Origin: Physcia stellaris
Lineage: Eukaryota; Ascomycota; Lecanoromycetes; Caliciales; Physciaceae
DNA: 64,000 nucleotides
Assembly: GCA_018902385.1 (NCBI GenBank)
Contig: JABSSW010000047.1
Span: forward strand, 62,001 to 126,000
Direction: 5' to 3'
Both the position numbers and the translations under genes were made by a program. Positions within the stretch are counted from its first letter, which is position 1. Every line of letters begins with the position of its first letter. The notes below the pieces were generated by a model. The model was not told where the DNA came from. It worked only from the letters and a program-made list of their open reading frames with translations, and searched no databases. Positions 16,557-47,001 of this stretch are shown here, one piece after another.

Positions 16557-19327
16557 ATGCAGTATCTAGATCCAATAGTCGTCCCCGAATATCCTGATAT
16601 TGATATTGTGTTTATTCATGGCCTAAATCACGCTCGTGATACTGGGACAAACGACAGGGGAATTTCTGGCCAGAGACGCTTATTCGCCAAGAATTACCAT
16701 CAGCGAGGGTCCTCCTGTTTGCGTACAATTCAAGCATTCTCAGTAATGCCTCAAGTGCACATGTGGCCAGCCATGCTCGAACCCTTTGCGACAGGCTCAT
16801 GAATCGTCGTCGAGAAGCTCAAGAGGTCCACAGGCCCCTGATCTTCATCGCACATTCCTTGGGGGTCTACTCGTCAAACAAGCCTTGGTCGAAGCTAGGA
16901 CGGATCCGTTATACAAGTGCTTGAAGATTTCAACATGTGGACTAGTGTTCTTCGCAACTCCACATCGGGGAGGTGAAGGAGCTGGCGTCGCTAAGGTTGC
17001 TGCTGATATCTGTAGTGCTTTTACCGGACAGCCGAGAAATAAGTTGCTTGAGTCACTCAAAACCAGGTCTCTAATAACCGAGTTATCTTCCGATCAGTTT
17101 AGACATCAGTTGAACGACTACGATGTTCTATCGTTCATTGAAAGACGCAAGATGCCTGTGAAGCTTCATGCACTCCTACCAGCGAAAAATATAGTAAGAA
17201 GACCTCTACACAATGTTAGCTCCTCTTACAGTGTACAGTTCATAGTCGACGAGACCTCAGCCAAGCTCGGGGCTGCCAGAGAGAACTTTCAGGACGTGGA
17301 CCGTAATCATTCTGATATATGTAAATTTTCTGGTCTTGATGACCATGCCTACGAGGGAGTTGGACCAAACTTGAAAGCCATGGCTGAGCGCGCACGACAA
17401 CGTGAAATACAATGCGAACACACGCAAGTAACAACCTGTAAGTAGCTCTTCTGATGCTCTTCTGATGCTCTTCTGTCGCTGTCACATTCAGATCCTGGGT
17501 ATTCCCGAACTTGATGGGATTTGCACAATAGAACGACAGTAAGAGACAGCCAATCCCATGATTATCTGATCAAAGCTTTGTGGGCTAATTTATTCATGTC
17601 GTTAATCGTGTCTAAACTCCCCGTAGTTATTAATCTGCCTGAGGGATCTTTCTAGCAATTGGCATGAAACTCGGGTTGAATATCAACGCTAATTTTTCTA
17701 CAACCAGCAGAGCCGAAAACGTCCATATCATTCTCACATACAAGCCGTATAGCTGGATCGCTTCCATCTCACCTTGCCTTTCGTCACCGAAATCCCCGTG
17801 TGAATCTTCCCAGGCTTTGCAGTCCATTCTTAGGTGAGCTAAACCCTACTCTCCATGCGAAATTGGCAGAGTCTCAATGTATGATGATCTCAAAGAGCGC
17901 GCGAGTCTTCATAGCTCTGTTGCCCCACATAAGATAACAAATGAAGAAACTCGAGCGTATTGCTAAAAGATATCTTTATAGGAAGGGAAAGGCTGCTAGA
18001 AGATATCTCACAAGTATGGCAAGATGCTACACCCCGCTGCCTCCTATTATCGGGACTCGGTGGGGCTGGGAAAACAGAGCTTAGTATTGCCCTCGTTGAA
18101 AAGCTTAATTTACAGGGATATGTACTGTGGCTGCGTGCCAGTAACGATCAAATATTAGAGCAAGATCTCATTACAGCAGCTGAAGAATTGAGGCATGAAC
18201 TGTTGCGGTTCGACGCTAGCAGCGACCCAGCCGCTGCAGAGGCTCGGCGAAACAGCACATTCTACTTCTCCCCAGTGCATGTGACAGAGCTGGTGACCAT
18301 CTTGAAGCGATGGTTGAAAGCACAACCCGAAGGCGCACAGAGAAAGTTATTGGTTCTTGACGACTTGGATGGACTCGACCAAGAACACCACGAGAAGTAC
18401 TCCCTGCTGTTCGCCGGGGATGCAGTAGATCTCATTTACACATCCAGAGATCCCTCCATGGCCGATCCCAGCATGCTTTGGGAAGCCATCAGTTTCGATG
18501 TGCCATCATTGACCTGCAATGATGCGGTTAAGATGCTGGATTTATTTGAACGACACAATCGTCCTACTCAGAAAACTCTCGACAAAAGTTCGTTAGATGT
18601 ACAATCTAGTCCTCAGAACAACGATGTGAAGGGAGCGCAGATGACCGATGTTGCAACATGCCTTGGTGGGCTCCCCGCAGCAGTTACCATGGGCTCTCAT
18701 TATATGAAGGACAATCTCGCTTCTAGATGGAATCCTAATAGCTACGCAAAATTCCTGGATCTATGGGCTCAAGAGGATGGGAAGCGCAACATTCTACAGT
18801 CTCATCGCGCCACCCTCAAGTACCGCCACAGCTTACTGGCTTCGTTCGAAGTATCATTACATCGCCTGAGGAGAAACATAGCGCACCTATCCTTTCATGA
18901 CACTCTCGAAGAGTGCTGTCTAGTATTGCTACAACTCTTCAGCATTATTAACATGGAACACATTTCACGGTATGACCTTGCTGAACTCAGGATTGGGATA
19001 CGCGCAGCACTGTCTCATCTTGAAGACCGTCCTGCAATTTTCAAAGATCCAGTGATGGAACACATGTTGAAAGATCTTGAGACTACATTAGACCAATGTC
19101 TAACAGAGATGGTCAAGGTCTCTCTACTCACAGAGCGGCCAAGTGATGGAACGCTTCTGCTCAACAATGTAACGAAAGTTTGCGCGCTCATAGTCGTACC
19201 AGAGACTGTTCCAATCGAGAGGAAGGCAGTTATTGAGGATAGCGTCAGGGAAATCACCGAAAACTGGAAGCTTAAGAGGGGTATGCGCATAGCAGGAAAG
19301 CAAGAAAATTCTCCCAATGATCCTTAG
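16557..19327 (+). pseudogene. Decayed NLR: SesB-like alpha/beta-hydrolase plus NB-ARC
   Basis: The N-terminal part has DIVFIHGLN, FWPETLIRQELPSARVL, the nucleophile elbow HSLG and FFATPHRGG, which together mark the SesB-type lipase-like domain of fungal NLRs. IVDETSAKLG and CKFSG follow, typical of the linker. The second part (from about 17950) has FIGRE, P-loop GLGGAGKT, Walker B LLVLDDLDG, and GGLPAA, an NB-ARC order. The frame changes by one base near 16645 and again at the G-run 16861-16865, just after the catalytic Ser. The linker at 17446-17950 is poorly preserved, apart from a 12-bp tandem near 17446-17475. No TPR or ankyrin repeats follow the stop at 19327. NLRs of this type mediate non-self recognition and regulated cell death; this copy is probably dead unless the assembly has indels. 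Confidence 0.72.
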
Positions 19328-36696: not shown

Positions 36697-36836
36697 CTAC
36701 ACAGGCTCCAAGGCTCGACTCCAGCCTCGCCAGGATCCAGGATCTCTTGGAAGTGCGGCCCGTAAACCGTCGAGCCCATTCAGCTTCTTGCCAAGCACCT
36801 CGGCCCGCGCCGAAGCACTCCCGAAAATGTCGTTCT
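36697..36836 (-). pseudogene. 3' part of a decayed host gene, left of the Copia insertion
   Basis: Directly left of the retroelement the minus strand reads DIFGSASARAEVLGKKLNGL and continues open to a stop at 36697-36699. It is in the same frame as the open stretch that enters the element from the right when the 5-bp target duplication is counted once. The composition looks like a helical host protein C-terminus. Family not recognised. Confidence 0.5.
36832..36836. repeat. Target-site duplication (left), GTTCT
   Basis: GTTCT precedes the left LTR and recurs at 42731-42735 immediately after the right LTR. A 5-bp duplication is the usual size for Ty1/Copia integration and fixes the ends of the element. 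Confidence 0.85.
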
Positions 36837-37032
36837 TATTGAACGAATGTGAATGACTGCCATTGCATTGCATGCAATACTATCGAAGTTACGTACAGAA
36901 GTAAATACAATTTGATTGCGCAAATGTTTCTAATAATAATCGATTTTGACACGTTTCGTTTAATCGATCAATCAGAAATTTTGATTTTATTCGTGTTCAT
37001 ATTTCAGTTTTTTGTCATCGTATTTTTCAACA
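36837..37032 (-). repeat. Copia LTR (3' LTR of the minus-strand element)
   Basis: Aligns base for base, without gaps, to 42535-42730 over 196 bp. The outer portion keeps normal composition; the inner portion has the element's AT-rich mutation signature. The ends approximate the usual TG...CA form, closing with CAACA. Confidence 0.9.
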
Positions 37033-40000
37033 TTTTCATTCGATGACAATCATGTTCATTGCATTCGTGAATGCGATTTTCATTGAATTTCAATTTTTGC
37101 ATTGATTGTGATTTTTATTGAATGCTAATTCGTGCAACGACGTAATTTTCATTGAATTTCAATTTTTACGTTCATTGATGAAAAAAACATTGAATTTTTT
37201 TGATCAAAAAATCGAATTCGAACGATTTCGAAAAAAATCATTTTGTATCATCATGCAATTCGAATTTGAACACGATTAACGAATTTCTGTTTTCAATCAT
37301 AATTTGTCAAATTCGTACAATCGAATCATCATCGCTTTAAAATGAAAAAAATGACGTAATTTCAATCAAATTCGAATTTTCTTGATTATTGACGAAAAAA
37401 ACATTGATTTTTTTTTATCAAAGAATTAAATTCGAACGATTTCAAAAAAAATCATTTTGAATTATCATGCAATTCAAATTTGAACACGATCAACGAATTT
37501 TTGTTTTCGATCATGACTCGTCAAATGTGTACGATTGAATTATCAACATTTTAGCATGAAAAAAACAGTTTTGATTATTGAAAAAAATTTAATTGATTTT
37601 CGATTTTTTCAGTTTCAATTGTTTCACGAATTTTTTGAATTTATTTTTTGACAATGATTTAATCAAATTATCGATTATCATGTTTGCATTTGAAACGTAA
37701 TTCAATTAAATTAAATTTTTTTGATGCAAATTTTTGATGTTATGATAAATCACATCAATGTGTTTTGATCGTTCGTGAATATATGCGTTTTTGATCAACA
37801 AATTAGCGATTTGATTATTTTTCAAAAATTGCATTGATAAACAGATTTCATGTTTATCGTTTTGAATGATTATTATTTGATTCAATTCGATTTCGAAATA
37901 TTTGATGAAATTCAAATTTCGAAAAAATTGTGCTATTCATAGTTTTTTTTTTAGCGCATGTCGATAAAATTATATATTCGATTTCAATGATTGAAATAGC
38001 GATCGATTTTTGTTTACGATTCATTCATGATATTGATTTCTCAACGAACATGTAAACGTATTCGAAAATCGATTTTTTGTTCAATTTATCGATTGCGTAA
38101 TCAGAATTCGAATAAATTTTAATTTTGAAATTTTCATTGTTGTTCAATTTCAAGTCGTATACAAGATTTAAATCGATGATCGATCGAATGTAACGAAACA
38201 AAATTTTCATTGTTTTGTCATGATGTTTCGCAAAATTATTGAAATATTGATTTAATCGTTTTAATGCGAAAACGATATTTGAACGATTTTGTATGACAAT
38301 ATATATGAATTTTTCAATTTTGTGTTGATAATTTTTTGAATCAATTCGTTCGTTGTTCGATTCAATTGATTTGAATGAATCGTAATCGTTCATAAATAAT
38401 TTCGTACGTTCGTGTTTATCGATATTCATATGCAATTCATTCAATATTTCGTTCAAATAATGAATTTGATTCAATCGAATAATTCGTCTTTTACGATCGC
38501 GAATAATTTTAATGTCAAAAATTTTTTTCATTTTTTTCAAATTTTTGATTTTGAATATTTTTTTGAATTCATTTTTGAATCAATTGATTTGTTCGTTGAA
38601 TTTGACGACAACAAAAATGTCATTCACGTAAAAAAATAATATGATTTTTCGTTTTTTATGACGAAACATGCAAAAATCAATCGAAATCTGTTCGAAATTT
38701 AGTTTGTGCAATTTTTTTACGCAACGCTCGTGTCAATTTCTAGTCGTTTGTTTCAATTCATAAAAGTTTCGACGAATCAGAAATGTTTGTTCGAAAAATA
38801 AATTCACGTCGAATGACGATTTCATGTAAATTATTTTTTTTTAAAATGATTTCGTAAAAACATTGTTGACGTTCATTTGATGATATTCGAAATTTTTTAA
38901 CGCGACGATAACAAAAAACAGACGAAAAATATCGAATTTGACAATTGAAACAAAAATATTTGTATAGTTTATTTCATATATTTGCGAGAAATTGTTTACA
39001 ACGAATTTGATTTTCAATTTGTTCAACGTATCATTCACATGCATTTTGATTTTGAACATTCATTTATTAATGACGATATTGACGTTTTTCGATGAAATGA
39101 CGACGTTTCAAATTTCATTAATTATTAACGTCGTCAATTCGATTTGAATAATTTCGAATCAAAATTTATTTCAAATGAAATCATTGACAGTTTTTTGATA
39201 ATTTTCGAACACAAATATGATTAACTTTTCAACGAATTGTCGATTTATTTTTTTTGTTGTTGCAAATAAAATTTATTCATCATGTTCGCATGTATCAAAA
39301 TTTTCGATTAAAAAAATCATCATGACGCGTGCAATTTTGTTGCGATGTTCATTTCGTTTTTTCTCGTTCGTGATATTTCGTTTACGTTTAAAAATTGTCA
39401 CGTGAAAAAATTGCTACATCATGCGTGAAAATTTCGTGAAAAATGTTAATTTAATACGCGTTTGAATTGTCGATTTCGCGATAAACTCGTTGATTTCATT
39501 TTTTTCATTTGATGTATTCATAAATTCATCGTTTTTTTTCATGTGCATTGATTGAATTTTTTTTTTTGTTTTTCGAAATCATAAACGCAATAAAAATCGA
39601 AAATTTCGCAAAAATTGATACAACAAATGTTGATGCAAACGTCGATGTCATCGAAACGATTGCAAATGCAAAAATTATTTTGCGTGATTTTTCGACAAAT
39701 CGTTTTTCAAATAATTCGTTCATTGTAATCGTGAACAAATTCAACGATTCGTTTTTTCATTTTTCACGTTCAAAAAACATTATTTTGTGATGTTTGATGA
39801 CATCACGACGATCGAAAACTCATATTTTGTATTGAATCGTGATGTTTTCGTTATAATTCATGAACACGTTTGATTTTTTTGTATTGACGAATTTATTTTT
39901 TTTATTTTTTTCAAACAATGATTTAATATCAACGAACGAATAACATTTGCATTTTCAAACGCGTATGTAATTTATTGACGATTTGATATTTGTTCAAATT

Positions 40001-40677
40001 TCAATAAAATTTGTTGAATTGTCGTCAATTATTGATTTCGTGTTTATACGATTGCGAACATATGCATTTGTTTTTTTTGTTTCAAATCAAAATTTTATAA
40101 ACAGTTTTGCATTTTGAATCATTGTTCGAATTTGATTTTCGATCGTTTTTATGACACGTTTTATTACGTCATTTTGAATGAAATTATACGAAACGATGTA
40201 TTGTGAAACAATGTCGATAAATTCGCATCAAAAATCGAATATAGATTTCAGTTTTTTGACGTTGTCACAACGTATTGTTTGTAATTTTCGTTGAATTTCT
40301 AATTTCATTTTCAATTTTTATTTGTTGAAAATTTTTGATGCATCGACTCGTTTGCGAAAAAATAGAATTCACGTTCGTCGAAAATGATTATTCACGATTT
40401 TTAAAAAATATTCGTAATCGAGTTTTGAAACGAATAAAAATTCACAAATATCGATAAATATCAATTTCAATATGTGAGTTTTGCGTTCGATTAAACGACG
40501 ATTATATGTATTAATCATTTTCGTAATCGCACATATTTTGCATGAATCGTTGCGATTTTCAACAATGAATATTGATTTGCGTAAAATTGTGATTTTGTGC
40601 AAATTTCGAAATTTTGCAAATTTCATATGATCAAAACGTCGATGTCATAACTCGTATAAATTACGTTTTTTTTGATT

Positions 40678-40779
40678 AACATTTGAATCAATATTTGAAT
40701 CAACATTTAAATCAATATTTGAATCAACATTTGAATCAATATTTGAATTAACATTTGAATCAATATTTGAATCAACATT
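40678..40779. repeat. 12-bp tandem repeat inside the Copia element
   Basis: About eight units alternating aacatttgaatc and aatatttgaatc, giving a 24-bp super-period. On the element's coding strand it would specify an Asp-Ser-Asn-Ile/Val run. It lies between the protease-like and integrase-like parts. Confidence 0.75.
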
Positions 40780-42534
40780 CGATGATTAAAAATCGATTTC
40801 GATATCATTTCGAAAATCAATATTTGCATCGAACAAAATTTCGTTCGAATTCACGATTGCTAACATTGCAAATGAAACAAACAAAATTTTAAAAAATTCA
40901 ATTGCAAACATCGTGCTGTTCGTTAACAATGCGTACTTTTTAAATTTTGATGTGATTTTGTTTATTATGTAAACATTTTTTTGAGCGAATGCTCGAAATA
41001 TTTCAACGTTTTGTTTATTGCGTATGAACAAATTATCGTCATTGAAATTTTTTATCAAATTTTTTTTGATAAAGTGTTTGTCGAATAAAAAATTGACGTC
41101 GAAATTAATTATATAAAACATTTTCGTCAACGTGTTTTTATCGTTTTTGACGCGTATCGTCATTGAATCACATTGATTTGAATACAATTTTTTTTTTCGA
41201 TTTTAATCGTGCGTTTTTTAATCGATTTGAAAAATTCATTAAAAAATCGAAAATCGTCAATTATGTAAAACGAAACGTCAATGTTTGCAATTCAAACGAA
41301 TTTGAAAAATTTATTGATCAATTTTTTGAATAAAACGACGATTTTTTTTATGTGTTTTTCATTGTTTGAATCGATGTCGATATCGAAATTTGAATTACTG
41401 TTGAACGAAAAAAAATCGACGACGTTATACGTTTTGTGTTTTTTATTTTTGCGTAAAAATTTTTTGATTTTTTGTTTTTTCGTTCATTTTTTTAATTTTT
41501 TCAAAAAATCACATTTTGCGATTCGATGTGAATCATCGCAAAAAAAACATTTCGTTTTTTTCGTTTTAATTTTGAAACGACGAAAATTTTCGTCGAAATT
41601 GAAAAATCGTCGTTAAAATATGCGATAAAATTGACGACGATTGTTTTTGATTATCAATGTCGATTCGACGATTTTGTTTGCAATGAATTGTGTTTTTTTT
41701 TTTTGCAATTTTTGAATAAATTTATTGATATCGAAATTGTTTTGTGCGTCGATTGTATCACGAATGACATCGTATTCGACAAACAAAAATGCTAAAAATA
41801 TTTGAAAACGACGTTTTGATTTGAACAAATTTGTCATGTTTGATTGCATGTTTGCAATTTTGCGATTTTTTTTGATAATATCGATATAAACGATTTCAAT
41901 AATCACGTTTGAAAATTTTTTGTAATTCATGAATTTTTGCAACAATTGTCGTTCAATTGTAGCAAATTTTTGTTTGTATTTGTTGACAAAAAATTTTCAA
42001 ATTTTTTTGACAATTTTCAATTTCGTCATTAATTTTTGATCATCGTCATCGATACATTCGATAAATTGATATTGTGTTTTTGCGTCGAATTTTTTTTCAA
42101 TTTTTTTTTATCAAAATTCAAATCGACATTTCATTTTGATTTTCGAAAATCATTCAATAACAATTTCGACACATAATTTGAATCGACGATCATTCAAATT
42201 TTTTCGTCGATAAATCATTGTTTCATTAATTTGAATCATTTCTCGCAATTTTGACGAATAAAAATATCGCAAATTCGACGCGCGTTGAATTTGTTGAATT
42301 CGAAATCGTTCATGATGCGTAATGTAATATGTAAATATGTATTCGAATGTAAATTCTTTTTATTGTCGTGTGTTTTCTCGTGAAATTGTCGATCGAATCG
42401 TGTAAATTTTTTTTATTGTTTTAACGCGATCGAACGATGAATTTTTTCACAATTGTTTGATTTTCGTGATTTCGTAATCGAACGATTGACGTTGACAATC
42501 ACAGAAAATTTATGTTAATTCGAATTTCATAATC

Positions 42535-42730
42535 TATTGAACGAATGTAAATGATTGTCATTGCATTGCATGCAATATTATCGAAATTACGTACAGAAGT
42601 AAATACAATTTGGTTGCGCAAATGTTTTTAGTAGTGATCGGTCTTGACACGCTTCGCTTAGCCGATCAATCAGGAGTTCTGGTTCTATTCGTGCCCATAT
42701 TCCAGTCTCCTGCCACCATACTTTCCAACA
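42535..42730 (-). repeat. Copia LTR (5' LTR of the minus-strand element)
   Basis: Second 196-bp LTR. Its left (inner) third shares the mutated character of the interior. The remaining right part, bordering host DNA, keeps normal composition, the mirror image of the other LTR. Confidence 0.9.
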
Positions 42731-42735
42731 GTTCT
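42731..42735. repeat. Target-site duplication (right), GTTCT
   Basis: Matches 36832-36836. Directly abuts the right LTR's CAACA end. Confidence 0.85.
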
Positions 42736-43248: not shown

Positions 43249-44616
43249 TTAGGCCTGCAGTCTTTCCGAGTCAAATGGATTGGGTCCATTCCGCAGCAGG
43301 AAATTCTCAACGCTGCCATTATCATCATTGAATACCAGCCCAAATTCACCGTTTACGCCAAAGCGCCCCTCGATGTCATGAAGAGAGAGCGTCCTGATCT
43401 GAGACCTCTCCTTGATATACTCAAGGACGTGCATCCAGCAAGCAGTGGTTAATATGCACGAGTGAAAGCTGAGTGTGCTTATATTTGGCGAACTCGTGAG
43501 AAAGGCCAACAGGTCATTGTAGGTCATCGAGCAATCGCTAAGACTGAATGTTCGGAGACGCGGGAAGTGACAGTCGCGAAGGATACGATCGAAGCTACTG
43601 GCGTACGGACAGAGCGTCTCCTCATCATCGCCGCAAGTAAGTACCCTCAGAGCCAACACTTCAACACTTTGCGCTTGGGCAAGATACCCAGCTAGTTCTC
43701 GGAAGACACAATAAATTGGATGTTCGTATTTATAAGGTTTAGCGTCCACATCGAGCTTGAGTGTGGTTAAAGTTGCTAAGAAAGTTTTGGCCTGAAGAGT
43801 TGAAGTTGTCGTGGAAGCTCTGGCATGAGGATCGAAGTCCAGTCGTCCAAAGATATCTCTTGCAGTCATTCTATATCCACTGTATTCTTTCTCTGTTTGC
43901 TCGACGCTGAGTTCTCTCAGTCGGGATCCATTCTTGAAGACCACCTTATAGAAAGCCGTTAGGATATCTGGTCCCCAGTCTTCTTTGGCCTGCGCAGGTG
44001 TGGGTCGAAACATTGCATGCATATCTGGTGGGATAGTGCAGTCCTCCCAGCGACAAAACTTGGCAAGTTCAAGGCCTGTCAAATCCATAGCTCGCCGCCG
44101 ATCAGTGATAATTAGCTTCCGAATATTATGTGCATGTTGAAGTATGCTACAAAGAAGTTGTCTGGTTGGTGTATGTTCTACTTGTCTCCTACTCTTCAAG
44201 TCTTCATAACCCATCTTAATGTGCTCTGCAAAGCGCGAGCGGTATGGGAAGCGAAGAGGCATATGGAGTGGAAAGGTCTCGAGGTAAGATTTGAATTGTC
44301 CTCCTCGTTCGACGCATCTTTTGTACTGTGCCAAGGTAAGTTCGCCGATGAAGAAGGGAGAAAGGATGAGGGTGGTTATCGACGATTTGAATGTGGCAAA
44401 AACCCTCGCTGTTTTCTCTATGTCGACTGGATCTGGTGACAGGAACACGGCATTGAAGGTAAGGTATGTGGCCTGTTCAGCAAGTGCCTTTGATGTTAGT
44501 CGAAGAGACTTCAGGTCCCGGCGGGGTAGCTTTTTGAGAATCTGTTGAACAAGTTCCACGGGTAGCTCAAAGGATGCATTGCCCACAACTGGAGGTGAAA
44601 TAGACATGGCTGGCAA
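43249..44616 (-). CDS. F-box protein with LRR-like C-terminus (paralogue A)
   Basis: A single exon of 455 residues. An F-box occupies about residues 16-58: FELPVELVQQILKKLPRRDLKSLRLTSKALAE. The rest is irregular leucine-rich sequence, with conserved blocks TDRRRAMDLTGLELAKFCRWEDC and LLAFLTSSPNISTLSFHSC that recur in its divergent neighbour. It ends GPNPFDSERLQA. F-box proteins link substrates to the SCF (Skp1-Cullin-F-box) ubiquitin ligase through Skp1. The substrate is unknown. Start at 44616, or three codons later at MSISPP. It is transcribed away from its paralogue at 45550. Confidence 0.82.
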   Translation of the reverse strand: MPAMSISPPVVGNASFELPVELVQQILKKLPRRDLKSLRLTSKALAEQATYLTFNAVFLSPDPVDIEKTARVFATFKSSITTLILSPFFIGELTLAQYKRCVERGGQFKSYLETFPLHMPLRFPYRSRFAEHIKMGYEDLKSRRQVEHTPTRQLLCSILQHAHNIRKLIITDRRRAMDLTGLELAKFCRWEDCTIPPDMHAMFRPTPAQAKEDWGPDILTAFYKVVFKNGSRLRELSVEQTEKEYSGYRMTARDIFGRLDFDPHARASTTTSTLQAKTFLATLTTLKLDVDAKPYKYEHPIYCVFRELAGYLAQAQSVEVLALRVLTCGDDEETLCPYASSFDRILRDCHFPRLRTFSLSDCSMTYNDLLAFLTSSPNISTLSFHSCILTTACWMHVLEYIKERSQIRTLSLHDIEGRFGVNGEFGLVFNDDNGSVENFLLRNGPNPFDSERLQA

Positions 44617-45549: not shown

Positions 45550-47001
45550 ATGTCTAGTCTGCCGACCATTTCAAGCAAACGTTCACTCCAGCTGCCCTTG
45601 GAACTCGTGCAAGATGTCCTCCGCCCTCTACCAAGGAAAGACCTCAAGAAGCTCCGGTTGGTTTCAAAAACACTGGCGAATATAGTCACGACGTTATGTT
45701 TCAATTCAATCTTTCTCTCCACTGATCCTTTGGATCTAGAGAAAGCCAGGGAAATTCAGAAGAGCTTCACACCCCTGATAAAGACGATGGTCATATCCCC
45801 CATCAGATATGCGAACTTAGGCGAGGAAAAATACCGAGAATGTGTTCAGTCTTTCGAGCGTCCTGGACATCAAATAACAACACGTACGCACATCGATGAG
45901 CACATGAAGCTGGGTTTTAAGGAGTACAATGGTATCCAAGATCGCTCAAGCGATCGTTCTGCTCATTATAAGATGTTGCGCTGTCTCCGCGTGGCCCTTG
46001 AAACGTTGCCGGATCTTGAAAAGGTTGTCGTCACTCACCGCCGCCGATACACCGAGCTTACTGGTCTGGAACTAGCAAAGTTCTGCAGCTTTGAAGAGTG
46101 TGAAATACCTCTCGAGCTGCACGCTCTATTTCGACTCAGCCCGCACCAGAGTTGTTGGGGATTGCCCAGTCCCGATGTCTCATACGCTCTCAGCTCGATC
46201 GTCATGTTCAGCCAGCCAAGAATGAGGGAGCTGATCATGGAGCCCTGTGATAAGCCATTCATTCGTTTCGAGGTGAAGATAGCATCCGCTTTCGAAGCGC
46301 CATTTACCGACACGCCGAACCGCGATGAATTCCACTTTAGGTCAGGCCTAAGTAGGCTGCGGGTCCTGGCGAGCTGCGATGTAACCAAATTCATATCAAA
46401 CCTGACTAGGCTGCGGCTCGGAATCGACATAAGCTGGATGCCGAAATCGCCTAAAACGCGGATGATACCCAGCATTCTTGCACACGCGCGGGAGCTGAAA
46501 TATCTCTTTATGGATGGGCTTACTGGTTACCTCAACGACCCTGACGACCCCAACGACCCTATTGTGAGTTCCTTTCGCTACATGTTACATGGCTGTCGAT
46601 TCCCGAAGCTCCGGGTCTTTGTGCTGGGAAATAGCGCAATGCATGGCGACGAGCTGTTGCCTTTCCTTACTTCTTCGCCGTTATTAGAACGCCTGGTGAT
46701 AGATGACTGTTGTTTGTCACATCAAAGATGGGAGCATCTTATCGAAGGAATAAAGTTGAACGCACGTTTAGACGATTTGTTCGTTGATGTGCTGTGGGAG
46801 GTTTTTGTTGGAGCACAAGGCGATGAAAAGTTTGTGCACTATGCCGACTGTGCTGGCGATGTCAATGATTTTATCTTTCACAGCCACCCTAACCCATTCT
46901 CGGGCGGAAAGCGGAAACAATACAAGGACATGTGGTGGTCGGATAGGAGATTTCGGGAACCTTCAATGAAGGTGAAGGAGTATTATGAAAAGTATTTCTA
47001 A
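45550..47001 (+). CDS. F-box protein with LRR-like C-terminus (paralogue B)
   Basis: A single exon of 483 residues. The F-box at about residues 14-56 reads LPLELVQDVLRPLPRKDLKKLRLVSKTLAN. It shares with paralogue A the blocks THRRRYTELTGLELAKFCSFEEC, SFRYMLHGCRFPKLRVF (A has SFDRILRDCHFPRLRTF) and LLPFLTSSPLLERLVIDDC, plus HPNPF near the end, so the pair arose by duplication and inversion. It carries an extra C-terminal tail (DMWWSDRRFREPSMKVKEYYEKYF) and a short DDPNDP repeat. The likely role is SCF ubiquitin-ligase substrate adaptor with unknown substrate. Confidence 0.85.
   Translation: MSSLPTISSKRSLQLPLELVQDVLRPLPRKDLKKLRLVSKTLANIVTTLCFNSIFLSTDPLDLEKAREIQKSFTPLIKTMVISPIRYANLGEEKYRECVQSFERPGHQITTRTHIDEHMKLGFKEYNGIQDRSSDRSAHYKMLRCLRVALETLPDLEKVVVTHRRRYTELTGLELAKFCSFEECEIPLELHALFRLSPHQSCWGLPSPDVSYALSSIVMFSQPRMRELIMEPCDKPFIRFEVKIASAFEAPFTDTPNRDEFHFRSGLSRLRVLASCDVTKFISNLTRLRLGIDISWMPKSPKTRMIPSILAHARELKYLFMDGLTGYLNDPDDPNDPIVSSFRYMLHGCRFPKLRVFVLGNSAMHGDELLPFLTSSPLLERLVIDDCCLSHQRWEHLIEGIKLNARLDDLFVDVLWEVFVGAQGDEKFVHYADCAGDVNDFIFHSHPNPFSGGKRKQYKDMWWSDRRFREPSMKVKEYYEKYF

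Follow-up and report, generated by a model that had tools for sequence, protein, structure and literature searches.

The Copia element of the window

The window, a stretch of 64,000 nucleotides from the genome of the lichen-forming ascomycete Physcia stellaris, contains a Copia LTR retrotransposon, recognized by its RVT_2 domain, its pair of LTRs and a 5-nt target-site duplication. Its features, with a strand assigned for the reverse transcriptase, are:

36832..36836, left target-site duplication (GTTCT)
36837..37032, left LTR, 196 nt, bearing 25 of the 32 LTR-difference mutations, with a CC at 36860 left in its outer ~24 nt
37033..42534, internal part of the element, with no CC/GG, 58 CT/AG, and normal CA/TG and CG density
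37136..37563, two adjacent direct repeats of 214 nt each, 82% alike, within the element
38427..39119, minus strand, remnant of a Copia reverse transcriptase (RVT_2; match G000:C47:100427-101119 minus), with internal stops (4 TGA and 1 TAA)
42535..42730, right LTR, 196 nt, mutated in its inner ~80 nt and little in its outer part
42731..42735, right target-site duplication (GTTCT)

Each of the six frames of 37033..42534 holds between 82 and 123 stop codons, with TGA the most frequent in every frame.

A first-pass annotation made from the sequence alone had reported that this internal block lacks CC and GG and is poor in CT and AG, with CA, TG and CG still frequent. The full count bears this out: CC 0, GG 0, CT 28, AG 30, CA 321, TG 397, CG 322, and TA 290. 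The density of the flanks would lead us to expect about 630 CC/GG, and the base composition of the block itself about 184 (CC+GG). The longest stretch in the window without CC/GG lies between 36860 and 42612; the runner-up is 108 nt. Per kb, CC/GG is 0 in the block vs. 114.7 in the rest of the window, and CT/AG is 10.5 vs. 134.0, a 13-fold drop. CA/TG (130.5 vs. 138.1), CG (58.5 vs. 52.8) and TA (52.7 vs. 47.3) stay close to the rest, such that the block shows no loss of CpA, let alone one to the degree of CpC and CpT. The unique flanks of the element have normal dinucleotides.

Realigning the two LTRs gives the same count as before, 32 differing sites, 29 of them at CpC or CpT (13 and 16), 2 at CpA and 1 at CpG. 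All are transitions and none is a transversion; the 5′ LTR carries 25 of the mutations and the 3′ LTR carries 7. What the first reading had not seen is that the mutated zone reaches into the LTRs, taking in the 5′ LTR for the most part and ~80 nt on the inner side of the 3′ LTR, and that the outer right LTR (42614-42733) keeps 11 CC/GG.

Repeat-induced point mutation (RIP) is commonly called from two indices, TpA/ApT ≥0.89 and (CpA+TpG)/(ApC+GpT) ≤1.03 (thresholds quoted in PMC3828140). The block scores 0.38 and 1.53, and so it escapes both, as had been anticipated. The usual index tests are blind here because C-to-T falls on CpC and CpT, and rarely on CpA.

The signature in other repeats of the genome

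We observe the same signature in 18 of 20 Copia regions examined (chosen from 137 RVT_2 matches, 11 of them for their likeness to the window's family) and in 8 of 10 loci of DDE_1 DNA transposons. In order to count mutations with a direction, we compared mutated copies with a less-mutated copy of the same family, for those pairs in which one was at hand. The proportion of sites changed from C to T is 80-98% for CpC, 60-87% for CpT, 1-8% for CpA, and 0.4-6% for CpG. Examples, from reference to mutated copy, are:

L024 to L028: CpC 661/714, CpT 494/661, CpA 45/777, CpG 33/647
L025 to L029: CpC 331/351, CpT 296/493, CpA 9/646, CpG 2/472
L025 to L031: CpC 403/423, CpT 469/580, CpA 42/768, CpG 8/587
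L025 to L032: CpC 236/242, CpT 306/350, CpA 35/457, CpG 5/348
L033 to L039 (DNA transposon): CpC 219/273, CpT 182/298, CpA 20/292, CpG 18/308

These other copies, far from showing CpA-to-TpA changes only, have many more changes at CpC and CpT. CpC is struck harder than CpT, and this order, like the recurrence across the genome, goes beyond what had been noted at first. The changes are nearly exclusively C:G to T:A and fall on both strands: L024 to L028 has 1233 C>T/G>A vs. 56 reverse transitions and 65 transversions. CpT mutations are even between strands in five of six comparisons, the exception being a skewed DNA transposon. The +1 base is the main determinant, while the bases at −2, −1, +2, and +3 have modest effects at most.

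Multicopy elements of both class I and class II are mutated from C to T on both strands, and the mutation is confined to the repeat, sparing the flanks, and fades at the ends. At the 5′ end of the L024 to L028 comparison, CpC/CpT sites struck in successive 50-nt bins are 0/15, 1/9 and 1/6, vs. 400/454 beyond 1 kb. The sparing is clearest at the 5′ end, and weaker at the 3′ ends of L031 (4/7, 5/8) and L045 (2/7, 4/8). One Copia pair, L004/L005, which is 96.9% identical, shows no CpC/CpT excess.

In the window's own family, 8 heavily mutated copies (of 12, after excluding four with split or partial matches) were compared in pairs. Their differences amount to 5822 of CpT type, 3685 of CpA type, 1718 of CpG type, and 110 of CpC type, with 1092 transversions; in these copies CpC is already exhausted. 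Since the comparison of W with L022 in this family has 145 differences of CpA type vs. 20 transversions, a slow CpA activity exists as well. Thus, the proposal of a process directed at CpC and CpT and not at CpA holds in that these two contexts dominate, with the qualification that CpA is a weak target (1-8%), struck more often in old copies.

The coding outcome also differs from the classic one, in which the glutamine codons CAA and CAG are the source of stops. As seen in one pair of copies, L024 to L028, tryptophan codons become stops, mostly TGA, and glutamine codons survive: 31 of 31 TGG were converted (29 to TGA, 2 to TAA), against 1 of 60 CAA/CAG and 0 of 20 CGA.

All this fits RIP in the broad sense, and we consider it very probable that these repeats have undergone RIP with an inverted target preference, CpC > CpT >> CpA, CpG. 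The initial suggestion of an unusual, possibly undescribed genome defence stands as far as the unusual target preference goes; an "undescribed genome defence" is too strong because the class is still RIP.

Other mutators and artefacts

Could there be no active mutator at all? Non-CpG methylation of repeats occurs in fungi and a DIM-2-class gene is present, such that 5-methylcytosine at methylated CpC/CpT of silenced repeats might slowly deaminate by itself. We find this improbable. Both L017 and L023 have CpC at 0 across entire 9.5-kb regions. Moreover, the element L025, which must be young because its two LTRs are identical (it is flanked on both sides by the same 5 bases, GTCAT), already has 7 in-frame TGA in its RT region, all at tryptophan positions of L024, with 2 TGG left. 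These mutations fall on one strand, which does not fit slow decay.

Indeed, L025 looks to have been mutated mainly on one strand. Where the other strand offers a CpT context, sites at which a copy keeps G and L025 has A number 19 (L029), 13 (L031), and 3 (L032); the reverse is seen at 1, 1, and 2 sites. Between its LTRs, L025 has 329 CC vs. 74 GG, although part of this GG deficit may be inherent, because this strand is C-rich in the family as such (L031 has 481 CA vs. 255 TG).

A one-sided element is what an APOBEC/AID-like cytidine deaminase, acting on the elements as single-stranded DNA or cDNA, might leave behind, and the changes in L025 are mainly G>A on the coding strand, as expected of minus-strand cDNA editing. 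We regard such editing as very unlikely nonetheless. APOBEC-type cDNA editing affects a single strand, edits the LTRs together with the body, and is limited to retroelements, and the deaminases read the 5′ base. Here the 3′ base decides, with a modest effect of the 5′ base at most; the heavily mutated copies are struck on both strands, with L025 the sole one-sided element; DNA transposons carry the identical signature; and the LTRs of L025, which the edited strand would template, retain GG. Because both strands and DNA transposons are struck and element ends are spared, a DNA-level, homology-guided process is favored over cDNA editing, which we reject, and the preference for a RIP-like process over APOBEC-like editing in the first-pass annotation is upheld. 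A search of the genome for APOBEC_N gave 0 matches, with the control likewise silent, and so carries no weight. No relative of a Copia RT turned up in a scan of viral contigs.

It is also hard to credit an artefact of assembly or basecalling at methylated motifs. The assembly does mix Nanopore with Illumina data, but the latter are combined in at ~30-fold coverage (as given in the accessible text of PMC7513301), the remaining CpT sites vary from copy to copy, and less-mutated copies and LTR edges have normal CC/GG.

That canonical CpA RIP was the main mutator, with the CpC/CpT loss secondary and later, has a negligible chance of being right: there is a minor CpA component in older copies, but TpA is barely up in the block, CpA and TpG are not down there, and the same alignments have 1-8% of CpA struck vs. 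60-98% of CpC/CpT. Two further candidates were rejected: UV-type dipyrimidine damage, as there is no shortage of TpC (TC 386, ratio 1.38) and the 5′ base effect is modest at most, and an intrinsic composition of the family, as the changes are directly visible in the LTR pair and in less-mutated copies.

Enzymes, known systems and extent

How would RIP with an inverted preference come about? Pairing of homologous copies would take place in the premeiotic cell of the sexual cycle. The conversion may then be the work of a C5-methyltransferase, either one of the RID class (RID-A or RID-B) or DIM-2, its target recognition having presumably shifted from CpA to CpC/CpT. Several cycles of it would turn C to T, until no CpC and hardly any CpT is left. 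Methyltransferases of the RID/DIM-2 type, to which the first-pass annotation had pointed, are in place: the genome has a DIM-2-class gene and two genes, RID-A and RID-B, of the RID/Masc1 class expected with RIP. A 45-row tree (built without a Neurospora RID row) separates the latter two from DIM-2, and we take them to be of the RID class from their motifs and annotated relatives. Because both sit on short branches, no sequence change is tied to the new preference. A Pre-SET search has one match in the genome, which is presumably of DIM-5 type; a Chromo_shadow (HP1) search has 0 matches, but carries no weight because its control is likewise silent. A RID-class protein of P. stellaris is G7Y79_00005g016670.

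In the published parts of the literature accessible to us, RIP in Neurospora crassa has the order CpA>CpT>CpG>CpC (quoted in PMC5496416). P. stellaris is alike in its C:G to T:A on both strands of repeats, its spared flanks, and its RID- and DIM-2-class genes, and unlike in that CpC, least favored there, is most favored here, whereas CpA, most favored there, is nearly spared. Trichoderma reesei, with CpA~CpG ahead of CpT>CpC (PMC5496416), departs from Neurospora as well, hence RIP preferences can shift; yet CpC comes last there and first in P. stellaris. CpT-rich RIP, beside CpA, is already on record in other fungi. Magnaporthe oryzae, Botrytis cinerea, and Sclerotinia sclerotiorum have CpT-plus-CpA signatures (Amselem et al. 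2015, PMC4352252, where CpT is given as predominant for Magnaporthe and for one strain of Botrytis), and CpT to TpT dominates alignments of RIP-capable fungi (PMC7882544). The mutated C has a 3′ pyrimidine there too, but CpA is the second signature and no CpC signature is named in the accessible text of PMC4352252, whereas in P. stellaris CpC leads and CpA is marginal, and does not accompany CpT. Basidiomycetes (Microbotryum) have a repeat-biased C>T by yet another dinucleotide rule, CpG/TpCpG, with no RID-class gene found (PMC4352252, accessible part); CpG is hardly touched in P. stellaris.

The lichen fungus Cladonia rangiformis, also a Lecanoromycete, has strong RIP, compartmentalized GC, RID and DIM-2 homologues, and sharp boundaries. 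Its struck repeats peak at ~16% GC, unlike the 24-32% of the P. stellaris blocks, and the accessible text makes no mention of CpA, CpC, or CpT (PMC12542154). According to a k-mer survey published in 2025, which covered 1,239 fungal species, RIP-like defences have a CpA preference in common (PMC12543289, as far as accessible). We found no report of a CpC-led, CpA-sparing RIP in the open-access literature searched. P. stellaris is a strong case of inverted preference, recurring in a genome with both RID-class and DIM-2-class genes. As a natural specificity switch, comparable with Neurospora RID and DIM-2, it makes the determinant of the RIP target testable by enzyme swaps.

On balance we lean towards a more specific picture, in which P. 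stellaris, and perhaps other lichen-forming fungi, have a RIP mutator that reads a 3′ pyrimidine in place of A (CpC > CpT) and all but exempts CpA. This mutator, probably one of the two RID-class paralogues with its specificity re-tuned, would knock genes out by Trp-to-stop and not by Gln-to-stop changes. RIP in such lineages would then be undercounted, because the CpA-based indices used in surveys cannot see mutation at CpC/CpT.

The extent could be considerable. The published genome GC of P. stellaris, 43.3% (PMC7513301, accessible part), lies between the ~49% of the window outside the element and the about 27% of struck repeats, from which the mutated share of the genome could be about one quarter. 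A 5S search of the genome gave 8 matches.

The Copia element and its relatives

Our best reading is that repeats of Physcia stellaris, a lichen-forming Lecanoromycete, undergo a real and very clean variant of repeat-induced point mutation (RIP), with an inverted target preference and recurrent across the genome. The assembly analyzed has 43.97 Mb in 147 contigs, with the window in contig C47. The published genome (46.57 Mb, 43.32% GC) comes from ascospore-derived cultures with Nanopore and Illumina data, and the paper describing it (PMC7513301) never uses "repeat-induced" in its available text.

The Copia element in the window has these parts:

36837-37032, left LTR, 196 nt
42535-42730, right LTR, 196 nt
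38427-39119, minus strand, RVT_2 remnant
GTTCT, target-site duplication flanking the element

The 5502 nt between the LTRs contain neither CC nor GG, and CT/AG falls to 10.5 per kb vs. 134 in the flank. The other densities per kb stay near those of the flank: 130.5 vs. 138.1 for CA/TG, 58.5 vs. 52.8 for CG, and 52.7 vs. 47.3 for TA. The outer LTR edges and the flanks keep their CC/GG. All 32 sites at which the two LTRs differ are transitions (CpC 13, CpT 16, CpA 2, CpG 1). The standard RIP indices, TpA/ApT and (CpA+TpG)/(ApC+GpT), are 0.38 and 1.53, which against thresholds of ≥0.89 and ≤1.03 reads as no RIP!

Within the element, beside the left LTR, lie two adjacent direct repeats of 214 nt, 82% alike (37136-37563). 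Directly to its right, 43249-44616 and 45550-47001 each hold a gene for an F-box protein, one per strand, and elsewhere in the window an AAA/NB-ARC-like ATPase frame occupies 17960-19327. A second copy of the family, with the same signature, is found about 70 kb away on the same contig (L015, G000:C47:30637-31329).

We fetched 20 Copia regions, chosen non-randomly from 137 RVT_2 matches, and 18 of them contain AT-rich blocks. In these 18, observed/expected ratios are 0.00-0.18 for CpC, 0.08-0.66 for CpT, 1.18-1.40 for CpA, 2.07-3.79 for CpG and 0.38-0.48 for TpA; L024 and L025 are the two without AT-richness. Loci of the DDE_1 transposase family, which we take to be of the pogo/Tc1 type, carry blocks in 8 of 10 cases (two of the eight overlap each other), with ratios of 0.00-0.43 for CpC, 0.13-0.58 for CpT and 1.14-1.34 for CpA. 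The remaining two are L033, which has escaped mutation, and the lightly hit L036. For RVT_1 elements, the internal stop is usually TGA in the match list (150 scored of 527 candidates).

On the other hand, the Copia pair L004 (contig C8) and L005 (contig C42), 96.9% identical and with long open frames, seems untouched by the C-to-T defence. Their differences (CpC 20, CpT 19, CpA 15, CpG 13, transversions 25) have no clear CpC/CpT excess, which implies that some repeats escape or are recent arrivals.

The target rule

As references we used three unhit or lightly hit copies (L024, L025, L033), unaltered and without a consensus.

C-to-T changes by 3′ base, reference to mutated copy (hits/sites); with L025 as their common reference, three of the rows are not independent
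L024 to L028: CpC 661/714, CpT 494/661, CpA 45/777, CpG 33/647
L025 to L029: CpC 331/351, CpT 296/493, CpA 9/646, CpG 2/472
L025 to L031: CpC 403/423, CpT 469/580, CpA 42/768, CpG 8/587
L025 to L032: CpC 236/242, CpT 306/350, CpA 35/457, CpG 5/348
L033 to L039 (DNA transposon): CpC 219/273, CpT 182/298, CpA 20/292, CpG 18/308

The target order is CpC > CpT >> CpA, CpG. Each pair has 11-56 reverse transitions and 2-65 transversions. The bases at -2, -1, +2 and +3 have a modest effect at most, a G at -1 or +3 lowering CpT hits by up to about 0.2 in some pairs. CpC followed by another C has a slightly lower hit rate (80-92%), which is what prior mutation of the middle C, leaving a CpT, would produce. 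A counterpoint to the sparing of CpA is its slow loss in older copies: pairwise differences in the window's Copia family, from 8 of 12 copies in which CpC is already exhausted, number 3685 of CpA type, 1718 CpG, 5822 CpT and 110 CpC, with 1092 transversions.

Strands, ends and an apparent early-stage copy

Could editing of cDNA produce the same pattern? Both strands are hit alike (CpC hits in L024 to L028 are 289/319 vs. 372/395, and 5 of the 6 comparisons show no strand difference in CpT hits), which we count toward RIP; and since DNA transposons are hit, reverse transcription is unnecessary. In the hit DNA transposon L039 (358-2832), CpC hits are even between strands (92/112 vs. 127/161) and CpT hits uneven (99/133 vs. 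83/165, p 2.6e-5), a skew that is possibly a trace of strand-wise rounds.

Also in favor of RIP, the mutations fade toward the element ends, most clearly the 5′ end. In L024 to L028, successive 50-nt bins going inward have 0/15, 1/9, 1/6 and 5/7 CpC/CpT hits, and 400/454 are hit more than 1 kb in. The first bin is alike in L031 (0/11) and L045 (1/11), and the 3′ fade is less sharp (4/7 and 2/7). In the same L024 to L028 comparison, all 31 TGG codons become stops (29 TGA, 2 TAA), as against 1/60 for CAA/CAG and 0/20 for CGA.

One of the references is itself informative:

G000:C20, L025:803-6054, L025 Copia element

Its LTRs are identical and retain GG, with GTCAT on both flanks; between them we count 74 GG vs. 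329 CC. Its RT region has 7 in-frame TGA at Trp positions of L024, and 2 TGG are left. L025 has A where the other copy keeps G (CpT context on the other strand) at 19 sites for L029, 13 for L031 and 3 for L032; the converse holds at 1, 1 and 2 sites. This family is C-rich on the same strand in heavily hit copies too (CA 481 and TG 255 in L031), so the GG deficit may be partly inherent. L025 thus seems to capture the process at an early stage, in a round that struck one strand. With one strand hit over 5 kb and the LTRs unhit, RIP fits better than cDNA editing.

Known RIP and the methyltransferase genes

The orders quoted for Neurospora, CpA>CpT>CpG>CpC, and Trichoderma, CpA~CpG ahead of CpT>CpC (PMC5496416), both put CpC last and CpA first (level with CpG in Trichoderma), whereas in P. 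stellaris CpC leads and CpA is nearly spared. The CpT part has precedents: CpT changes accompany CpA in Magnaporthe, Botrytis and Sclerotinia (PMC4352252, which gives CpG for basidiomycetes) and in Neurospora and Stagonospora repeats (RIPCAL; PMC2621366). CpT to TpT also dominates alignments of RIP-capable fungi in an Ascomycota genome-wide study (PMC7882544), and N. crassa rRNA pseudogenes have raised CpT, and CpA too (PMC5555474). As for CpC, Monilinia repeats have CpC to TpT double changes besides CpA (PMC8959702), and in a table of CpN SNP spacing for Rhizoctonia AG8, under a heading of CpG-biased hypermutation, CpC is the closest of four single contexts (PMC4014442). Monacrosporium haptotylum has no CpA drop, with no replacement stated in the text available (PMC3828140). 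Strong RIP is on record for the lichen Cladonia rangiformis, in a paper whose accessible text mentions none of CpA, CpC or CpT (PMC12542154). A 2025 k-mer survey finds CpA preference common to RIP-like defences (PMC12543289). We found no report of a CpC-led, CpA-sparing RIP in the open literature searched, itself a partial coverage; so far as it shows, the P. stellaris variant is new, and the CpC lead with near-sparing of CpA is without precedent there.

The PF00145 profile has 4 matches in three genes, RID-A (contig C5, L011), RID-B (C6, L009) and DIM-2 (C3), whose class names we take from class motifs and from annotated relatives, in a tree without a Neurospora RID row. In that tree (45 rows of 46 picked, one dropped for lacking the motif used for domain cutting), DIM-2 is set apart at support 100, and the two RID genes, both on short branches, belong to separate groups (99 each). 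RID-B is nearer the Aspergillus and Talaromyces enzymes, with weak support (80), and its close relatives include Heterodermia. A RID-class protein of the assembly matches P. stellaris G7Y79_00005g016670 at 98%. Two distinct RID-class genes coexist with one DIM-2 in P. stellaris. We infer that a RID-class enzyme or DIM-2 may carry out the variant, and that it would act in the sexual cycle. Pre-SET has one match in the genome.
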